DNA from: Blepharisma japonicum
Lineage: Eukaryota; Ciliophora; Heterotrichea; Heterotrichida; Blepharismidae
DNA: 64,000 nucleotides
Reading direction: 5' to 3'
Assembly (NCBI GenBank): GCA_949751835.1
Contig: CATKHK010000051.1
Location: 62,001-126,000 of the forward strand
Part shown: in pieces, positions 36,443 to 57,494 of the stretch
How the letters are laid out: the number at the start of each line of letters is the position of its first letter
Numbering within the stretch: the first letter of the stretch is position 1
Position numbers and translations under genes: made by a program
Notes under the pieces: generated by a model
What the model saw: only the letters and a program-made list of their open reading frames with translations
Database searches by the model: none
Told to the model about the DNA's origin: nothing

Positions 36443-39031
36443 TTATGAGTACAAAAACATAGATAATAATTGATTTCTTTGGGTTGGCAAAATCTTCACA
36501 CTTGGATTATATTCGCCTGCATTTTCCATCTCCATAAAATGAGTTAACGGCTCAGTAAACAGTTTAGCTAAAAACACAGCTGTGAGTCCATTATATAAAC
36601 TGTTATCTATATAATTTTTCAAAAAATCTATAATATACAAAAAATTTTTCATTGATATTTGGTCTAAATTATTCATCAGATAATTTCTTGCTGCAGGAAA
36701 TGAATTTGCTTGGAAAATCTGACAAGCTTCTGAAACTAATTCAGGCAAAAGTAGAGGCTGCTCCAAACAGTCTAAAAATTCTAATAATATATTCGACATA
36801 GAAAAAATATCTGCATCTTCCCTAAATGATTCTCCAGTATCAAGTGCTCATCGAATATCTTTTTTTATCTCGGTATCCCCAGCTTCTTGGAAAATCCCTT
36901 TTTCGCGATATCCTTTTGATTTCAAAAACTCAACCATCCTTGCCAACTCTTTTGGGATTTCCATAGCTATTTTTGATTTATCTGCAAAAACTGATAGCTT
37001 TTCGTTCAGTGATGCTATTGGCTGCGGAATTTTTATAAGATTTTGGATAGTCGCTCCAAAGCAAGAACCATTAATTTTACATTGAATTTCTATAAAAAAA
37101 TCTGATCCACCTTTTACTCCTAAAACAAAAATGCAATTAGTGTACTCTGGGTTTTTATTTAATTTTCGTGTTTGGTTTTTTCCAAAATAAATGCTCAGTT
37201 TAATCTCTTCTATTTGACGAGAAATTAAAGTACCTTCTTCTGGCATAACAGTAAGCCAACTCTTATGGAGACCCAAGTCTCGATTATGCTTTACCTCAAA
37301 TTTTAAAACATTTGCTCCTACATTTTCTATAGTCAACACTTTTGTGAGCAAAGTTTTATAGCGAACTCCAGTAATTTCGACAAAATTTTCTGAAACTTTC
37401 AGCTTGGGCATGCTTTCATGGTGCATGTTGTCAACAGTTTTATATACTTCACTTTTTACTTGATCGAATAACAAAGGGTCTGTATGCTTTGCTGGCACCA
37501 TAAAACTACCAAATACTGGCTTATGGTCACTTTGGATTATATAATTGCAGATTCCATATCGCATTAAAAACGCTTCACCTCTTCACAATATCCGATCACA
37601 TCAAGCTGGGTCTCTTTTATTGTTTGTATTAAATTGATTAGTCGTGCCAATCCGATATTTAAAACTTGGCATAAAATCTATTTTTCCTTCGTGAAATTCA
37701 GCTAATATGTCATTTTCTCTTTTTTCCATGTATAGCTGATCATATTCGAGCAATTCAGAAAAATTTTTTGCATAGATTTTATTAATAATGCTGTCAGTTG
37801 ATAAATTATTAAGTCGATAATTTAAATCACCCGCTCAAAAAATAAAATCATGCTCATATACATTCCTGAATTCTTTACTACTTAATACAAATTTTCCTTC
37901 TTTCGATATTGTTTTTATTTGTTCATTCCTAAGCTTAGCTTGGTTTTTATGCGCTGCGAGATGGCAATTAATTATGCATACACTCGATTCAAATAAATCA
38001 AATCTCATGCAAATCGCGCCTTTATTCCCAACATATCCCTTAAATCCTAATTTTACACAGGACGATTTTATTTCATTAATATAATCTCTCATGCTGAATT
38101 TTACAAAAATCATTGTTAAAAGACCCATCAGATGTTCGTCTCCTACCTAAATATCTCTTACTATTGTATACTGATTCCCTGGAAATGAGTCATTAATCTG
38201 ATTGCAAATATGAGACATCCAATTCCTCATTCTTACATCGTCGCCTACAATGTTTTTTGGGCTGAGTTCACACATTTCTTGCAAACAAATTACAATCACA
38301 TCAGGGGATTGTTCAGGCTCCAAATACACATCATTTTGGCAGCAGAACCACAAAAATAAATCTTCGCTTGGTCCTTTCCCAGCTGTATTTCAAGTCCCTA
38401 TAATCATTTTTATATCCCTGATTTCTGTATATTCAGTTTCCCTTATTTTTAACTGGTCTTTTATATAAGCATTCATCATATCTTTTCCATAATGTTCTGG
38501 TAACAGTGCATTTGATATTTTTTGTATAGAGTTATTTTCTGTGTTATATTCTATTGATCTTACTTGTATAGGTATCGCTGATTCATAGTACCACATCCAT
38601 TTATGTGAGTTAGATAGGGCATGGAATGGTTCTCTTTGATACCTTGATACCTCTTCTATATGCTTTATAAGCGTATTGATTAATTTTTTATTATTTGTAG
38701 TGATATCTCAGAGAGTTGCATCATAAGTCAGCCAGCGAAATAAAAATCCATCTGATTTTGGAATTATTTGGATTTCTTTTGTGAGAGGAAGCACTATCAG
38801 AAGTTCAAGTCCGCCGCTGAGAGAAAAGATTTTTCGAGGGCGGAATAAGAAAATTCTGAATAAAAATTACGCTTGCTCATATGGGCAGGATTTATTTGAT
38901 ACTAGTGCAAAAAAGCATTCCTTGGGTTTTCCTTTGTATTGAGTTGTGACTATTTCAAGCTATATTAAGAATACTTTTAATAAGTTTTCTGAATTCCTAA
39001 GCCTATTTTGAACCGTCTTGACTGGGTTCAT
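36443..39031 (-). CDS. OCRL/INPP5B-type inositol polyphosphate 5-phosphatase (5-ptase, ASH, RhoGAP)
   Basis: Four exons (39031-38975, 38959-38871, 38855-38162, 38146-36443) with 15-nt introns at 38960-38974, 38856-38870 (ending CAG) and 38147-38161; 847 residues against 901 in human OCRL. N-terminal 120 residues resemble the PH domain. The phosphatase shows GTWNTAGKGPSEDL, VICLQEMCEL, GNKGAICMRFD, NCHLAAHKNQ, FWAGDLNYRL, PAWCDRILWRG and SDHKPVFGSF, with four of the Trp encoded by TGA. An ASH domain follows (about 520-640), then a RhoGAP-like domain (EKGIFQEAGD, LVSEACQIFQ) that ends at the TAA. The enzyme dephosphorylates PI(4,5)P2 on endosomes, Golgi and cilium base. The GAP Arg appears absent (FQEAGD in place of FRxxG), as in OCRL. 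Confidence 0.93.
38856..38870 (-). other. 15-nt intron with CAG acceptor
   Basis: GTAATTTTTATTCAG (minus strand). Splicing joins CPYEQA to IFLFRPRKIF; without it an in-frame TAA ends the model. Most introns here end in TAG, so CAG is the minority form. Confidence 0.75.
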
Positions 39032-39388: not shown

Positions 39389-40567
39389 ATGGCACAATCA
39401 AATCCACTTATGCGAAGATCTAAACTTCCTCCTATCAGTGGACAAGCTACAACAGGCGACATTCAAGATCGATTAAAAACAATGCAAAATCCTGCAGCAT
39501 TACTATTATCATATGCAAAATTAAATGGGCAAAATATAACCTTAAATCGCCCTAGACAAACCAAAACATCCGCGCCAGTTCATATCGCAATTTCTCAAGA
39601 TGACCAATTACCTACTGATTTTGTAGAGGGTAAAGAACCATATGAAAATATTGCATTTGCTCCTTTAAACCAAGACCCTGAAGGAATTTATACATTCGTG
39701 GAAAGTAATTTCTACTTAGATATGAAAACTGGGAATTTTAGAAGATTTCTTAACAATAATTTAGTTATAAAAGAAGCGAAACCTGTTTACACTTCTGTTT
39801 CTGAAGAAGAAAAAGAAGCAAGCGTATATATGAAGTTGGAAGATTTAAGTTTTTTTATTCACAGATTTTTCTTGTTTCTTCAAGGTATATGTGGAGGCTT
39901 AGGAATAGTTCATATTTATTTGCTGTTATCTAATTTCGATGATATTGAATTTTTGGATTTTTATGCGCAACATGCGGTACCAATTGGAACACTCTTCCAT
40001 ATTGTTGTGTTTTTATCATTAGTCGGAGCAATTCATAGAGTGATTTCAGAAAAAAATCATTGTAATTAATATTTAGACACTGTAATCTCAAGAACTGAAG
40101 TAGACTATGACACTAGCAAGCATAGAATGCCATATTGCATAGCTATGGTTTGCACAATTTGCTATGCAATTGCTTATATTTTTGTGACAGCTTGTGCAGC
40201 TTTTGCGTCTAGGATGTATTTTAATGATAAAAATTACCAGCATTCTTGGAAATCTAATGTAGACTCAAGCATTTCAGATGGGCTTAAAAGCTGGAGATGG
40301 CTAATGATAATTGCAGACGCTTTAATAATTCTTGCGTGGATTATTTGGTCAATGCAAAGTAATTGGAATATTGGTACACTATATAGGATGGAACTTGAAG
40401 CTCTGAAACGAAAAGAAGAAGCCACTGTTGTTAGCTATTTACAAAAGATTTATCGCCACTTATTTTATGGAAATCCATATTTACCTTCTGGAGTTTATAC
40501 TATTAATGATACCAAAGAGGAGAGTCCAACAAAAGAAAAGGCTGAAAAGGAAATCAAAAAACTATAA
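39389..40567 (+). CDS. TMEM237-like four-pass membrane protein
   Basis: Two exons, 39389-40061 and 40077-40567, with the 15-nt intron GTAATTAATATTTAG; 387 residues, stop TAA. A disordered N-terminal 170 residues (MRRSKLPPISGQ, then TFVESNFYLDMKTGNFRRFL) precedes four helices: RFFLFLQGICGGLGIVHIYL, TLFHIVVFLSLVGAIHRVI, CIAMVCTICYAIAYIFVTAC and WLMIIADALIILAWIIWSMQ. The pattern F-QG-x-x-G-x-x-x-VH in helix 1, the conserved acidic loop and the helix order resemble TMEM237, a ciliary transition-zone protein (JBTS14 in humans). The assignment rests on topology plus a few residues, so another four-pass family is possible. Ciliary function would make sense beside the OCRL-type gene with which it shares a divergent spacer. 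Confidence 0.55.
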
Positions 40568-40921: not shown

Positions 40922-41755
40922 ATGGAGAGTTCTCGGGTCCGTGCTGTTCTATTCAAGAATGAGCAGCATCCAACTGATGCACATCAAATTTTAATCAGTC
41001 CCAACATAAGTAAAGAAGAGTTACTGCATTTGGCATCAGAGCAGCTTGGAATTTCAGCAAAAAAAATCTTTTCTGAAACAGGGCTCCTTTTAAACTCAGT
41101 CAACTCTATATCAGATGGCACCACGTTTTACATCTCTCAAGGTGAAAATTTCCAAGTAAAATCATCTTCAAGCCCACAAAAAACTAGCAAAAAATACGTG
41201 ATTTGTTTATTAGGCGCAGCGGCTGTAGGAAAATCAGCGATAACCTTGAGATATGTGTCTAATAAATTTGTAAGGGACTATGATCCAACAATTGAGGATT
41301 ATTATACCAAAAATGTGGTAATTGATAATGAGCCGACAGTGATATCAATTTTAGATACAGCGGGCATGGAAGATTACTCACCTTTAGTTGATGATTGGAT
41401 TGATAATAAAGACGGGTTTATTTTGGTTTACTCAGTAGAACTCCCTGATTCGCTAACAAGATTGAGATTTTTTAGAGATAAAATATTGCATAGATATCAG
41501 CGTCAAGGAAATAAAGGGCCAGTCACAGTTATGGCAGCTAATAAAATAGATATTCCTAATAGAAATGTATCAGCTGAAGAAGGAAGAAAAGTAGCAGAAG
41601 AGCTTGATATGAAGCAATTTGAAGTGTCCGCTGCTACTGGTCAAGGAATCGATGACGTTTTTGCTGATATAATAAGAGTGCTTAGATCAAGAAGGGTTGT
41701 TCAAAAAAAAGAAAGTAAAGAATCCTGGTTTAAAAAAGCATGCAGCCTTCTTTAG
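40922..41755 (+). CDS. Doublecortin-like domain fused to a Ras-family GTPase
   Basis: Single exon of 277 residues, stop TAG. Residues 5-80 (VRAVLFKNEQHPTDAHQILI ... LLNSVNSISDGTTFYISQGE) have the doublecortin pattern: a strand with Asn, a helix, then L-N-S-V-x-x-I-x-D-G-x-x-Y/FYxxxGE. Residues 92-265 are a Ras domain: GAAAVGKSA P-loop, FVRDYDPTIEDYY switch I, ILDTAGMEDY switch II, ANKID and SAATG. The C-terminus is CSLL, a CaaX box ending in Leu that predicts geranylgeranylation. At the positions equivalent to Ras Gly12, Gly13 and Gln61 the residues are Ala, Ala and Met, which should lower intrinsic GTP hydrolysis. DCX domains bind microtubules, so a membrane-tethered microtubule-linked GTPase is a reasonable guess. 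Confidence 0.85.
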   Translation: MESSRVRAVLFKNEQHPTDAHQILISPNISKEELLHLASEQLGISAKKIFSETGLLLNSVNSISDGTTFYISQGENFQVKSSSSPQKTSKKYVICLLGAAAVGKSAITLRYVSNKFVRDYDPTIEDYYTKNVVIDNEPTVISILDTAGMEDYSPLVDDWIDNKDGFILVYSVELPDSLTRLRFFRDKILHRYQRQGNKGPVTVMAANKIDIPNRNVSAEEGRKVAEELDMKQFEVSAATGQGIDDVFADIIRVLRSRRVVQKKESKESWFKKACSLL

Positions 41756-43814: not shown

Positions 43815-46800
43815 TTAAAGATTTAAAATTTCATCAAGCACATAAAGTGTAATTTTTTTATTCCTATCCACAATTTCTTTATGAACATCAAAAGTGTATG
43901 GGCATTGAGAATTTTTTTGAAGAAGATTTTTTGCATACTCACTTACCACAATTTTCCCAGGAATTCCGTTACTTTCACATTTATTAGCAATCAGCACATC
44001 TCTCCCATAAATATCGTACCTCACAATTTTAGTTCCAGCTACTCCTCCTATAACATTCCCAGAATGAATCCCAATTCTCATGCACAAATGTGTAAAATAT
44101 TCACTATTAATATCTTCTATAACCTTCAGCATAGCTTCTGCAAATTTCATTATATTTAAGCACTCTACAGCTGGATTTCTATTGTTATCTTCCGTAAATC
44201 CAATGGCTACATAGCAATCTCCAATAGTGTGAACTTTATATACATGGTGCTCTACACAAATTCTGTCAAACCTTGTGAAAAATTCATGAAGCATCCCTAC
44301 AATTTGTTCAGGACTTTTGGAAGCTGATCACAAAGTATAGCCGACAATATCAGCATATAAAATTGTAACGTCAGATAAAGAGTCAGTAATAGTGTTTTCT
44401 TCTTTTAAGTTGAAATACACATGAGATGGCATCATTTCTGTAAGAAGATTCTCAGTTTTTTTGCTTTCTTTGTGGGCTGCTTTGCGAAGAGCATATGAGA
44501 TTCTAAGCTTTTTTTCTCGATAGTAAATAGAATATGTCATAATAAATAATAGTATAAAGGACAAAGAAGCGATTTCTGCAGTATTGAATTTCATAAAAAT
44601 TAGAACAATAAGCATTCAAAGTATAAAGACAATAGAAATAGTTACAGTAATGTGCTTTAAAAATGAATTTGAACAGTGTGTAAGATACAAAGCGTGGAGA
44701 ACCATTTTTCCAAATTCAATATAATTATCATAGGTCGAGTCTTCAGTTCTGGTTAAAACCATAAGGATCCCCATCCCTGCAGCAAAAATTCACTGAAAAA
44801 TTCACCCAGTCATAATATTTTGTTTTTCTTTTTTAACCATTTTTATCATCAACAGAAACAGTAAAAATTCGAGAAATAGACTTCCAAGCGAAACACTTCG
44901 ATAAGGCGTTGTTTTATCATCATTAACAAGAAACCTGGCAAGACTTAAAACAGTAGCAACAGCAAAAAATACAGCTCCAATAATCAATCCATAAAAGACA
45001 ATAGGAAAATTACAACTAATAAAATATTCTCTGAATTTCTGGTCTTTTAGCCTTTCTTTGCATCTGAAGGAAATAAATCTAACTTTTTCTATTTTGGGGG
45101 TATTCGATCTTTTGAAAACTTCATCCACATTATCTAAGTCAAGAGTTTCCAAAAACAAAGACTTTCGTCTTTCCCCTGAAATAATATGATGGCTAGTATC
45201 GAAATAATAGCTTGATTTCGACATAGAAATTGTCGAAAGTCTTCCTCCTTCCATACTCATTTGGGATTTCTTAATAGTCATTGTCTCTTTGTCACCCAGT
45301 ACAGATTCTTTAACTAATTTTGTGTCCATAGTCCCTTTGCCTTTAACCTCTACTGTTTTATTTTCAAAACTCAAGCCTTCTTTAGAATCTATCAGCTCAA
45401 AAGTGTCATTGGATATTTGGATGCAGCTTGAGTCTTGCAAAGTTGAAGCCATTCTACTTGCTGTGTTTACAGTATCTCCTACTAGTGAAAACTGAGGTTT
45501 ATGAAACCCTACAACTCCAGCTGTGACTGGGCCACTATTAATTCCAATTTTTAATTTTAATTGAGTGTCATCATTTATGAATATTTCTTCTGCAGCTTTT
45601 AGCATCCCGAGTCCAAGTTCTATTGCTCGTCTTGCATGAGAAACACTTGAGAACATTGGATCCGATTCAGGCTCTGAATCTTTTAAACCTGCACAAGCCA
45701 TATAAGTTTTTCCAACGGTCTCTATTTTTGTGACTCCAAATTCATCACACAATTGGTCAAATTTTCTAAAAACTCCATCCAAAAATTCTATAAGATCTTG
45801 AGGTGTAAATCTTGAGATAATCGCTTCAAAATCGCATATATCGCAAAATAGCACGGAAACAGTCCCTTGGTTTTCTGTTATATATCTTACTCCATCTTTT
45901 ACTCTTTTCCTCACAAAAGCTGGAAGCAAGAAATTTAGGACGCTCATTGATTTTTCTACTTCTTGTTTATCATGCTGAATTCTTGCAAATTCGTCTCGTC
46001 TTGATTTTTCTCTGACGTAGCTTATAAGTGTTGAGACTGAGATTACTGATAAATATACAAAAATGTATTCGATTATATAGAGAACCTGATTATTATAGTC
46101 AATTTGGCTACTTTGGGTAATTTTTTCGATAATAATAGGAATTGTAATGCCAAAATGAATGATTGTTAAAGCTACAAGATAAAACCACAATGTGCAAAAG
46201 CCTAATAGAACTATAACAGGCAATGATATAATTGTGCTTATAGATAATCAGCCAAAAGTATAATATTCTATTACAGTTGCTGCCAAATTCACTATATAAA
46301 CTGAAAGGAGCAGTTTTTTTTGGTATTTTTTAAATAATCATTTTCATGTCAAAATGAAAAGGCTGAGATGATATAAGCCAAAAATTGAATGATAAATCAG
46401 AACTCCAAGCTCCTCATAGGATATTAGAGAAAGGATAAACAAGACAACATATCTTGATAGAAATAGTAAAATCAAAGCTCTATATTGGATAATGTTTTCT
46501 CTAAGCTGCTCACCTTGATATTCAAGCTCTCTTACAGGCGATATGAACAGCAACCTCCATTTATTCAAATCATATCTATCCAATCTTTTCTGTTCTTTTC
46601 ATTTATCAGTCACTCTGTAAAGCTCACTAATACTATCTTTATATTTTTCCATCCTTGAAATCACAGCAACTTGGTAAATTTTATTGGTAAGAGCTCTCAT
46701 TAAATGAATAGTATTTGGATCGAAATTTATATTGGCAACTCTTGCTGAGTAGCTCAATACAAAGCAAATGCATGGCACCAATAATATATGAGCATAACTT

Positions 46801-49800
46801 CTTGGGCAGTTATTAATCATTTCTGCTGCCATAAAACTTGGGTTTTCATCTACTTCTGAAACTCCTTGAATATAACCAAATGCTATCATAATTGATATTG
46901 CAATAGAAGCCATTGTGTATTTATTGAAAGAGTTCACTTGTAGCATAATTGTTATCATAGAAACTATATATCAGTCAATAAAAGCCAAAATTCCTATATA
47001 AGTAAAATTCTCAGTATATCCTGAAGAATTGATAGTTGAATTGACTCCGAAATACAGGAATATGAATAAAATAAAAGCATGTGATACCCCTTCAAAAGCA
47101 AAATATGTCAGCTTCTTAAAAGTGAAAATTTCTTTTTTAATCCCTACATCATAAGATTCTGGATGCATTGTGATTTCGGCCTTTGAAATATCCTCATCAA
47201 AAATTCCTATTGCCATAATAGGAAGCAGCGTCAACAAAAACTCCAAAATAAGGATGTATTGGCTATCAATTAAACTAATACCTGAAAATCCTACGCTGGC
47301 ATTGTAGAAAAACAGCAAGCAGACTAAAAGAATATCTCTATATATCACAAGAAACATAACTGAAGCTATTCTTGTATAACAATAATGGCCTTCAAACAAT
47401 AAAAGATGTTTCAATTGAGAAAAATCTCTTAGGCAAATACATCCAGATAAAGAAGCATCTGGACCTTCATTTCCTTCGATCCCAACTCCTATATGTGATT
47501 CTTGAATCATTGCAGTATCACTTGGCCCGTCTCCAATTGCCATAATAGCAGGCTTAAACTGAAAGTTCCCTTTAAGCAGCCTAACAAGTTTAATTTTTTG
47601 ATCCGTCGTAATTGAGCTAAAAATGACTGTTTTTGCAGCAAAAAGCAAAGCAACCAAATGTCTTCTGCTTTCTTCTGTGTTAAAAGCAAATTGCAGGCCG
47701 CTTCTATCGATGGATAATACATAAGATACAGTATCTGGGTCAAATGGGTATTGTAGCACATCTTCTAATACTACATTAGGTACCAATTCAGACATCAGTG
47801 GGTGTATAGATCTTCTTTGAAAAGGCATATTAAAGCTTTTTTTAACTGGAGAATCACAATAAGGGGATAATCCATTCACCTCATCGCGAAACATCATTAA
47901 TTCGCTTCTATTAGAAATGTTGTTCATTTCATCAGAATATTTTCTTTTCGGTGACATTATTGACTTGTTAGGATTTTCTGGCGATTCTCCACTGTGATAT
48001 ATAAGCTGCTTTATGTGGTTTCTCATAATCCTTGTGCATTCCATTTGAGAAGTAATACCTCGGATTCTTGCCATTTGTGTATGCTCTTCTGCCAGTCCAG
48101 ACGAAATTGCAGCACAAATAGAGCTTTCTTCAGAGTCTCCACTGGCTAGTCATATTTTAATTCCAGCTCTGCTTAGAAGTTTCATGGTTTCTTTTGTTTC
48201 ATCTGCCACTAAATCTTCAATTCCAACAATTCCCAAATATTTCATACCTTTTTCATAGCGCTCGAAAACACGATTCATCCTTCCTTCACTATTAACTGGA
48301 GAAAGCTTGGCATTCCCATAAGCAAACTTGAATTCATTAAGCTCTTTTGCGGATAATATTTTATAGCCTAATAAAACTTGTTTTTTTCCTGAAAGGCTTT
48401 TCATATAAGTGATTGATTCAACATTGGAATATTTATTTGAATCGATAGATAGCAGCCTGACCATAGGATCTCTTGACCCGCGGATGTATAAAATAGCTTG
48501 GTCTGTGTCCGGGTATCTGATAAGAATTCTTGTTCTTTTAGTTTCATGATTAGGAGGTTGAAAAGCAACAACAGCTAAATCAAGCTGCTTATCAAAATAC
48601 AGCACTGATATTCTTCTATTTGATCTTCTCATAAGCTGCATACCTGCTTTTTCACTAGTTTTAGCTAATAATCTATCTTCTTCTGATAAGGAAAAATACT
48701 CTCCATTTGATTTTGTCAAAGTTTGATTACAAATGGCCAAATTTACCATAAAATGAAAAATAGGAGAAAACATTTCTGCTTCCCTTAAATCATGTCGCAA
48801 GTTCAAAAAATGATTGAAGTCTGAAGAATTTTTTTTTGTGTAGCTGTTTTCACATTCGAAACCTCTAGGAGTACCACGAGGAGTTGTAGGATAAGGATAA
48901 GAGTCAATAGTTTCTTCGCTTTCATTTACATAAACATCATCTCCAACTACACACACATTGGCAGTTAGTAAATCCTTTGTTAAAGTTCCAGATTTATCAG
49001 CCAAAATATATTCGACCTGTCCTAAATCTTCGTTAATATTCCATGTATGAAACCAAATTCCTCTGTAATTGTGCTGGATTCTAAAAATTTGGAAAAATCT
49101 GATAATAATTAAGCTCACAAAAAGGGAAATTGGTATGATGTTGCTGAACAAAATAATTAAATTGCAAACAAGCTCGATTACTGTGTCATTATATTTTAAA
49201 TCATAAAATAAAGTTCCCATCAGGGACGAAAATAATACAAGGAAAAATGCAAAAATTCAAAGATAACGGATTCATTTACCAAGCAATTTCTGGCTGACTG
49301 AAAGTCTTCTAAACCTGTTTCGCTTATGTGCCCAAGTTGTGGACTCAACACCTGTATAAATGATCATCCCTAAAATCCAGTTGGTATTAACAATTCTTGT
49401 GCCGCTCTGCAAAAGGTTTTTAATTGTGATCGGAGATGCTTTCGGGTTTGTGGTAAGTTTAAGTGATCCTTCGAAATTTTGATTTTTATTAGCTGGTGAC
49501 ACCTTTATTGTGGCGTTAATTTTGGTCAGTAAGGATACTGCGAGATTAATGTCGAGTTTGTCAAGAACTTCTTGGGAATCTTTAATCGATCGTTTGATTC
49601 TCAAGCTTTTCTCGCCGTTTATTTTTGAAATGTCTGTATAGCAGATGTGCTTCTTTGATCCTATGCTTAAGATCAGCATATCTGCTGGAACAGTTTCATT
49701 TTCGACAATACACAAAATGTCCCCAACACAAATATCTTTACTTTTCTTTTCTGTGATGATATCTCCATTCCAGACTTTATAAAATTTATTATTAACTTCT

Positions 49801-50138
49801 TCATCATTTTTATATTTCCAATGATCGTTCAAAGCATCTTTTAAAAGGGTAAACAAAATTAATGTAAGAAATACACTGAAAATAAATCACTTATAAAGGA
49901 AATCAAAATTCAAAGGCATGAGTAGGATGACAAAAACCATCAGAAATCATAAATTGTAAGAATATTGCAGTTGCTCGAATAAATTTTTGGGTATCAGATC
50001 TCACTTAGTGTACATAGAAGTCTTTATTAAGTTTGTGACGTATAAATTGCTGGTTCGAGATAATCCTTCTATAAGTTGTATTGTTCGCCAAAGTTCTTTA
50101 TCTTTTATTGAAGATCTACGCTTTGAGAAACTCGCCAT
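43815..50138 (-). CDS. P-type ATPase-guanylyl cyclase (ciliate/apicomplexan type)
   Basis: A single intronless frame of 2107 residues with about 15 or more TGA-coded Trp; stop TAA. Residues 1-1010 form a P4-ATPase-like module: A-domain ICYTDISKINGEKSL, phosphorylation motif LADKSGTLTKD (Asp at about 380, normally DKTGT), IEDLVADET, GDGPSDTAMIQESHIGVGIE and a set of membrane helices. A second multi-helix half follows with two cyclase domains. The first (about 1425-1600) has KIETVGKTYMACAG, where Glu is the guanine-selecting residue, and FSLVGDTVNTASRM, but lacks the second metal Asp. The second (about 1920-2095) has ILYADIVGY and VHTIGDCYVAIG with both metal-binding Asp. This reversed order is the hallmark of Paramecium, Tetrahymena and Plasmodium guanylyl cyclases. 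It makes cGMP from GTP, likely at the plasma or ciliary membrane. Confidence 0.93.
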
Positions 50139-52727: not shown

Positions 52728-53570
52728 ATGGGCTCCAATCAAACCTCAGATAAAAATAAAGAAAGCAGGCAAGGCTACATTGATTCGGATGCATCACACA
52801 GAAAGTATGTTGGGCATAAAGAATATAGTGAAGTCGAATTAAATTATTTAAAAGAGCTTATTTTGATATTTCGAAGGTCATCTGATTTTCTCTCCCTTGA
52901 AGATTCATTAACACTATTGTGCCTAAATAAGTATATAAGACAGCATATAGCAAATTCAGAATGAGAAATGAATATAAGCATCAAAGCTTGCTTAGAGTTT
53001 CTAAAAGAAAATTATCAGGCGGAGTTTATAACCAGATTCCAAGATTATGATATAAACTCTCACAATCTATATAATAATTTTTCAAAATCTGAAAATTTGC
53101 TTAAAAATCCTTGTGGAGAACTCGGGTTTCGATATTGGGATAAAAATGGGGACTGAAGATTTTCTAAAAAAGGCACCTGGAAAAATAAATCAAGATGCTT
53201 TTGCACATCATATAATTGGGCTGAACTTTCACAAGAAATCCAGTTGAAAGATGAGCAATGTCATAAGATTTTATTAGCAAAGAGTTATGTTGCAAGAAGA
53301 TTTGATTGTGAAAGCACTGCAAGAATTACAATCGAAGGATATGAAAATGATAGCTGAAATATAATGTTTGATTCTGGATTATTTCTTCCTCCTTATAATG
53401 AAGTTGTTAAAAGTCCTTCGTGTGGATGAATGAAATTGAACTTTACGAAAGTAATCAATCCTCGGCTAACTAAAATAAAGGTGACCCTAGCAGGCAAAGA
53501 CAATAAATGTTGGAGAGGATATTATGGACCAAGATTTGGGTATACTGATATTCGAATAATAGATATTTAA
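52728..53570 (+). CDS. F-box-associated (FBA) domain protein, copy A
   Basis: Single exon of 280 residues with six or so TGA-coded Trp; stop TAA. N-terminus MGSNQTS could be myristoylated. Residues 35-75 (LIFRRSSDFLSLEDSLTLLC) may be a diverged F-box. The FBA domain starts at about 115: ENLLKNPCGELGFRYW matches the NLLRNPCGExGxxxW signature of FBXO2/FBXO6, followed by FCTSYNWAELSQEIQLKDE, KSYVARRFDC, MFDSGLFLPP and a C-terminal jelly-roll strand RGYYGPRFGYTDIRI. In animals this domain binds high-mannose glycans on misfolded glycoproteins or partner proteins for SCF ubiquitination. Here the same role is possible, but the F-box is weak. It has a close paralogue at 56664-57494. Confidence 0.85.
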
Positions 53571-56663: not shown

Positions 56664-57494
56664 ATGGGCTCCAATCAAAATAAAGAAGACAGACAAGACT
56701 ACACTGATTCCAATATGCTGGCTAAAAAGTATGCTGTGCATAAAGAATATAGTGAAATTGAAATAAATAACTTTAAAAAGCTTATATTTATATTTCGGAG
56801 ATCAGCTGAATTTTTCTCTCTTAAAGATTTATTAAAGCTATTGTGCCTAAATAAGTATATAGGGCAACATATAAAAAATTCAGAATGAGAAATGATTATA
56901 AGCATTAAAGCTTGCTTAGAATTTATAAATGAAAACTATCAGTCAGATTTCATAAGAATTTTTCAAGATTGTGATATAAACTATCACAATATATATAATA
57001 ATTTTCCAAAGTCTGAAAATTTGCTTAAAAATCCTTGTGGAGAACATGGGTCTCTGCATTGGGAGGTAGATGGAGATTGAAGATTTTCTAAAAAAGGCAC
57101 CTGGAAAAATAAATCAAGATGCTTTTGCACATCATATAATTGGGCTAGACTTTCACAAGATATCGAGTTGAAAGATGAGAAATGCGATAAGATTTTATTA
57201 GCAAAGAGTTATGTTGCAAGAAGAGTTGATTGCCCAAGCTCTGCAAGAATTAGAATCCGGGGATTTGAGTATTGATTCTCAAATGTTATTTTTGATTCAG
57301 GAGAATTTATTCCTCCTGATAATGAAGTTGGAAATGATCCTTCGTGTGGATATATGACAGTGGGTTTTTTGGGATTAATCAATCCTAAGCTAACTAAAAT
57401 AAAGGTGACCCTAGCAGGCAGAGGCAATCACGGTTGGAGAGGATATTATGGGCCAAGATTTGGGTATACTGATATTAGAATAATAAATATTTAA
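56664..57494 (+). CDS. F-box-associated (FBA) domain protein, copy B
   Basis: Single exon of 276 residues with TGA-coded Trp; stop TAA. Closely related to copy A (52728-53570): same MGSNQ start, LLCLNKYI helix, SENLLKNPCGEHGSLHW, FSKKGTWKNKSRCFCTSYNW, KSYVARRVDC and the identical end RGYYGPRFGYTDIRI. Differences cluster in the loops, for example VDGDWRF against KNGDWRF and GFEYWFSNVIFDSGEFIPPD against GYENDSWNIMFDSGLFLPPY; the latter may mean a changed ligand pocket. Both copies are open, suggesting both are used. Confidence 0.85.

Follow-up and report, generated by a model that had tools for sequence, protein, structure and literature searches.

A small family of Ras-type GTPases with an N-terminal KHA domain and methionine at position 61 in the ciliate Blepharisma japonicum

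Within a 64,000-nucleotide stretch of the genome of Blepharisma japonicum (contig CATKHK010000051.1 of assembly GCA_949751835.1, positions 62,001 to 126,000 of the forward strand; the whole stretch is 'the window' below, numbered from its first letter), a single gene at 40922-41755 encodes a Ras GTPase preceded by a domain that is best called KHA, on a profile score just over threshold. The product, here termed KHA-Ras, is one of three in a family set apart by methionine in place of the glutamine at Ras position 61 (Gln61). With a probability of about one half, the reading put forward is that KHA-Ras is a prenylated Ras protein with weak GTP hydrolysis, which its KHA domain clusters or docks. 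It is the KHA-Ras family with its Met61 that is new here, Ras and KHA each being known already; among the open-access papers listed, those on small GTPases of Blepharisma and other ciliates included, none shows a KHA-Ras protein, judged in part by title, though InterPro might list the architecture without comment.

The gene and its two paralogues

The features of the gene, with residues numbered in its product, are as follows.

40922-41755, + strand: KHA-Ras gene, an uninterrupted open reading frame (ORF) of 277 codons, ATG start and TAG stop; its paralogues (277 and 278 amino acids) have the same domain order
40940-41134, + strand: KHA domain (PF11834), residues 7-71, by Pfam profile match
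41204-41683, + strand: Ras GTPase domain (PF00071), residues 95-254, by Pfam profile and tree placement
41213-41236, + strand: P-loop GAAAVGKS, residues 98-105, alanine at Ras positions 12 and 13
41354-41374, + strand: switch II DTAGMED, residues 145-151, methionine at Ras position 61
41741-41752, + strand: C-terminal CSLL, a CaaX-like prenylation motif

The ORF, its P-loop, its switch II and its CSLL end are all present as an earlier note, made from the letters of this DNA, had described them. Judged by its motifs, effector loop, place in a tree and the CaaX-like box present in all three copies of the family, the protein is a Ras-subfamily GTPase. Its Ras domain matches PF00071 at an expectation (E) value of 5.9e-38, with 130.4 bits against a cut-off of 21.6, and the sole addition from NCBIfam over cut-off is a general small-GTPase domain. 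The nucleotide-binding motifs GKS, DTAG and NKID are intact, as is the effector loop (YDPTIE/DPTIED), and the best matches in the PDB are KRAS and RAP2A, equal at E 1.3e-35. A 92-row maximum-likelihood tree was made from 90 proteins of the genome (a further one of the 91, shorter than 110 residues, was dropped) and two human references, KRAS and RAP2A, with none named for Rab, Rho, Arf or Ran. One clade in it, with support 100/99, has nine rows: the three KHA-Ras proteins, four others from the genome (L018, L019, L020 and L023), KRAS and RAP2A. The order inside this clade is poorly supported, with 89/12 where the trio meets KRAS/RAP2A and L018/L019. KHA-Ras thus has in common with the two human proteins the G motifs, the YDPTIE loop, a CaaX-like tail and the clade itself, whereas it alone of these has an N-terminal KHA, Ala12, Ala13, Met61 and, in the G5 motif, SAA.

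Is the joining of the two domains real? A search of the genome for relatives (45.2 Mb in 224 contigs) gave two further full-length KHA-Ras genes, 78% and 69% identical to the window protein and with no internal stop. In alignment the three are alike in the N-terminal domain, in GAAAVGKSA with its Ala12 and Ala13, in DPTIE, in DTAGMEDY with its Met61 and in a C-terminal C-S/T-L-L (the tails are CSLL, CSLL and CTLL). Since all three paralogues carry the fusion, the alternative of two separate genes misjoined as one is rejected. Comparison of the window gene with its closer paralogue gives nonsynonymous (dN) and synonymous (dS) divergences of 0.20 and 1.97 in the N-terminal domain and of 0.13 and 1.11 in the Ras domain, this being the one measurable pair, as dS is saturated in both domains in the other two. 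The low dN/dS, taken with paralogues of the same layout, argues strongly against misjoining: KHA-Ras makes up a small family that is conserved, and both halves show selection as protein. Two strings of 15-16 nucleotides of the form GTA...AG, at 41318 and 41567, were considered as introns inside the ORF; the three-paralogue alignment is ungapped at both, and so no intron is inferred there.

Beyond the trio no KHA place over cut-off was found in the genome, by a search that ignored introns and so could miss a KHA split by a tiny one. A place on contig C33 was set aside, with 19.0 bits, below the cut-off, in an ORF of 97 residues with no Ras domain in view, and the N-terminal part as genome query, likewise ignoring introns, adds two weak, unread places, on C95 (E 0.012, with internal stops) and C5 (E 0.79). 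Relatives outside this genome were sought in prokaryote genomes and viral contigs, where there were none, which has no bearing on other ciliates.

Identity of the N-terminal domain

The KHA label is given because PF11834 passes its cut-off and because the family's PDB rows, though not significant, are all plant K+ channels. Against a cut-off of 29.6 bits, the profile scores 29.8 on the complete sequence and 32.0 (E 1.3e-7) on the N-terminal part alone, and the match spans the whole domain, residues 7-71 against profile positions 2-67 of 67. A profile made from the N-terminal parts of the three paralogues gave eight rows against the PDB at E of 10 or below, and all eight were plant K+ channels (AKT1, KAT1 and AKT5), none of them significant, the best being at E 0.28; the N-terminal part of the window protein alone, run with phmmer against PDB sequences, gave no match at E of 10 or below.

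The earlier note had taken this domain for doublecortin (DCX), and had pictured a DCX-Ras fusion, prenylated at CSLL, that might hold microtubules. One gene with an N-terminal globular domain joined to a Ras with a CaaX-like tail is indeed what is found, but the DCX label gives way to KHA. In the Pfam profile check DCX (PF03607) does not appear at E of 10 or below for either the whole protein or the N-terminal part, a listing that is incomplete above about E 0.1, where the HMMER filters drop most matches, and a six-frame search of the genome without introns gave no DCX match over cut-off; on this profile evidence DCX identity is rejected. What likeness there is lies below threshold: the DCDC1 ubiquitin domain PF25510 matches the N-terminal part at E 0.004 with 18.1 bits, far under its cut-off of 30.4, and another DCDC1 domain, PF24478, matches one of the three family members at E 0.026, also sub-threshold. 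KHA and DCX belong to a common ubiquitin-like fold class. A structure model of the KHA domain alone is weak (mean predicted local confidence, pLDDT, 58.3), and its Foldseek matches are mostly ubiquitin-like with none reaching E 0.001, nor does any VIA-align Z exceed 6.1. The first row is a Toxoplasma conoid-fibre chain at E 0.063 and the tenth, among many ubiquitin-like folds, is Toxoplasma TgDCX (6b4a; E 0.29, template-modelling (TM) score 0.48), neither being significant. A ubiquitin-like fold class is what KHA-Ras would have in common with DCX and TgDCX, to judge by such weak model matches, whereas it has no DCX profile match. Beyond the ubiquitin-like arrangement of this weak model nothing speaks for a hold of KHA-Ras on microtubules, and binding to them is unlikely. 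With KHA over cut-off, DCX unlisted and the family profile's PDB rows confined to plant channels, a doublecortin-Ras fusion holding microtubules must be considered very improbable, the DCDC1 and conoid-fibre likenesses notwithstanding.

Could the domain instead act within the molecule, as a lid folded onto the protein's own effector loop, so that GTP-loaded Ras would be autoinhibited until KHA is pulled away? KHA has a ubiquitin-like fold, as do Ras-binding domains. The linker is short, about 24 residues between the Pfam matches (residues 72-94), and fewer when the first Ras strand is counted, and confidence in the full-length AlphaFold2 model from single sequence is too low for use (mean pLDDT 36.5). 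The lid is rated as quite improbable.

Hot-spot residues, hydrolysis and a possible role for KHA

All three classical hot spots, positions 12, 13 and 61, differ from Ras in the sequence of each of the three copies, which bears out the earlier note on this point. How unusual is that in this genome? In a survey of its small GTPases, 100 of the best-scored 140 places were read and 91 of the 100 gave both P-loop and switch II in a single frame, with the KHA-Ras trio included in all the counts. Gly is found at position 12 in 9 of the 91, against Ser in 45, Thr in 15 and Ala in 10, and at position 13 in 60, against Ala in 10. At position 61 there are 82 with Gln, 4 with Ser, 3 with Met and one each with Glu and Asn; the Met61 carriers are exactly the trio. 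With Ala in 10 of 91 at each of positions 12 and 13 and Met61 exclusive to the trio, it is therefore Met61 that marks the family, Ala12 and Ala13 singly being normal superfamily variation, and to that extent the two alanines count against a reading built on all three residues. The A12/A13/M61 combination stands out more against the Ras clade alone, where positions 12, 13 and 61 read A-G-Q in L018, T-G-E in L019 and G-G-Q in L020 and L023. In the G5 motif all three KHA-Ras proteins align SAA instead of SAK, with alanine at the equivalent of KRAS Lys147. This is not unique to them, as among the other parsed GTPases L092, at least, has SAA as well, and a rough tally has the lysine in 66 of 87 parsed GTPases, by a regular expression that misread some rows, the window gene included.

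Some other rows of the survey merit mention in their own right. L019 (G000:C103:82977-83501, - strand), in the Ras clade and without KHA, has Thr12 and Glu61 and so is, besides the trio, another case in the genome's Ras clade of a residue other than Gln at position 61. L020 (G000:C51:336093-336467), on the same contig as the window gene and truncated at the contig end, has normal hot spots and is 41% identical to the window protein. L021, L053, L061 and L063 are Rab-like, have Ser for Gln61 and fall in two adjoining groups of the tree.

That Glu61 and Ala12 occur in other Ras-like proteins of the genome (L019 and L018 respectively) might suggest neutral drift of the hot spots in a divergent Ras to which KHA is a passive appendage. 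But the three substitutions are unchanged even though the copies are 22 to 34% divergent from one another, and dN/dS is low in both domains in the one measurable pair, so that drift, too, has very little probability.

Almost all Ras Gln61 substitutions put to the test are known to slow hydrolysis, Glu being an exception; for Met61 itself, the literature searched on Gln61 substitutions gave no hydrolysis data. In KRAS, G12A, Q61H and Q61L make GTP hydrolysis more than 40-fold slower (PMC11450236), and K147R and K147Q raise RAS nucleotide exchange (PMC8295990); from the two together, KHA-Ras should lean to the GTP state. Slow hydrolysis by KHA-Ras is plausible on its residues: loss of Gln61 together with Ala12 would make for weak hydrolysis, both intrinsic and as stimulated by a GTPase-activating protein (GAP) with an arginine finger, and the protein would then be largely GTP-bound. 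Its output would be set less by RasGAPs and more by exchange, amount and place. As to place, predicted prenylation at CSLL would anchor it to membrane, where KHA may cluster KHA-Ras molecules or dock them on a partner, as has been reported of KHA for a plant K+ channel. That channel is KST1, clustering of which is lost on removal of KHA (PMC8644596). Pfam matches over family cut-offs in the genome number two for RasGEF, three for RasGAP, two for Rap_GAP and three for prenyltransferase.

Against this scheme several points have to be set. RAP2A has threonine at position 61 in the alignment, and Rap proteins are nevertheless switched off by their own GAPs, Rap-type GAPs having no need for Gln61; the two Rap_GAP-type matches show that such proteins exist in this genome. 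Both paralogues of the window protein fall below the KHA Pfam cut-off, at 28.2 and 25.2 bits. In one of them, L011, Asn replaces the last Asp of DPTIED (DPTIEN), and its effector contacts may differ from those of the other two copies. Acetylation of Lys147 is itself without effect on exchange (PMC8295990). The current of KST1 is unchanged without KHA (PMC8644596) and GORK without KHA gave only slightly more current (PMC12742848), on account of which the function of KHA is poorly defined even in plants. KHA is not resolved in the GORK and AKT1 structures (PMC12742848, PMC9515098).

The first of these points leads to the main rival, a normal Rap-like cycle in which a Rap_GAP-type GAP supplies the catalytic residue, loss of Gln61 and Gly12 is harmless and KHA only localises the protein. 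In its favour, beyond the two Rap_GAP matches, RAP2A with its Thr61 ties with KRAS as best PDB match and lies in the same clade. Against it, Rap_GAP domains have further GTPases among their substrates, neither of the two is linked to KHA-Ras, and the genome has its three RasGAP matches too. On balance a Rap-like cycle is doubtful, though it is to be taken seriously.

Where else is KHA found? The papers listed on the domain deal mostly with plant K+ channels. In the plant K+ channels AKT1, KAT1 and KST1 it lies near the C-terminus of the channel, whereas in KHA-Ras it is at the N-terminus of a GTPase. KCTD9 has an N-terminal KHA and is soluble, a BTB and pentapeptide protein and not a GTPase (the literature passages on it gave nothing on KHA). 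Another alveolate, Plasmodium falciparum, has a CAMKL kinase with KHA (DUF3354), again a fusion with an enzyme of signalling, but one that is not a GTPase (PMC4177888).

Genomic surroundings and significance

Among the parsed GTPase rows, the tryptophan before DTAG is encoded by TGA in 24 and by TGG in 55, and TGA is therefore read as Trp. A neighbouring ORF that starts at 39389 is interrupted at 40062-40076 (+ strand) by the 15-nucleotide GTAATTAATATTTAG, on removal of which the frame is kept, in keeping with the tiny introns of heterotrichs. In Blepharisma stoltei UGA is Trp and introns are predominantly 15 and 16 bp (PMC9942806). On the other strand, 43815-50138 (-) holds a 2107-residue ORF, with TGA as Trp, for a P4-type phospholipid ATPase with two guanylate cyclase domains, ending about 2 kb from KHA-Ras. 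This ATPase-cyclase layout is familiar from ciliates and apicomplexans. At 36443-38128 (-) there is an OCRL-like inositol 5-phosphatase with ASH and RhoGAP domains, and two ORFs starting with MGSNQ, at 52728-53570 and 56664-57494 (+), are alike by eye and apparent duplicates, with another ORF between them.

With the KHA-Ras family, small GTPases join channels and kinases among the carriers of KHA. Ras is the model of a GTP timer, and removal of its Gln61 the classic means of breaking it. A bolder proposal, unlikely as things stand, is that KHA-Ras is a natural 'locked-on' Ras family, its three substitutions at oncogenic hot-spot positions fixed, that is controlled no longer through GAP-driven hydrolysis but through KHA assembly, with clustering and not the nucleotide cycle as the switch. 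More generally, a conserved family with Met61 and Ala12 in each of its three copies, fused to a domain that is reported to cluster membrane channels, would be a case in which to see how a cell copes with a Ras that turns off slowly, and whether the GTP timer can be replaced by clustering.
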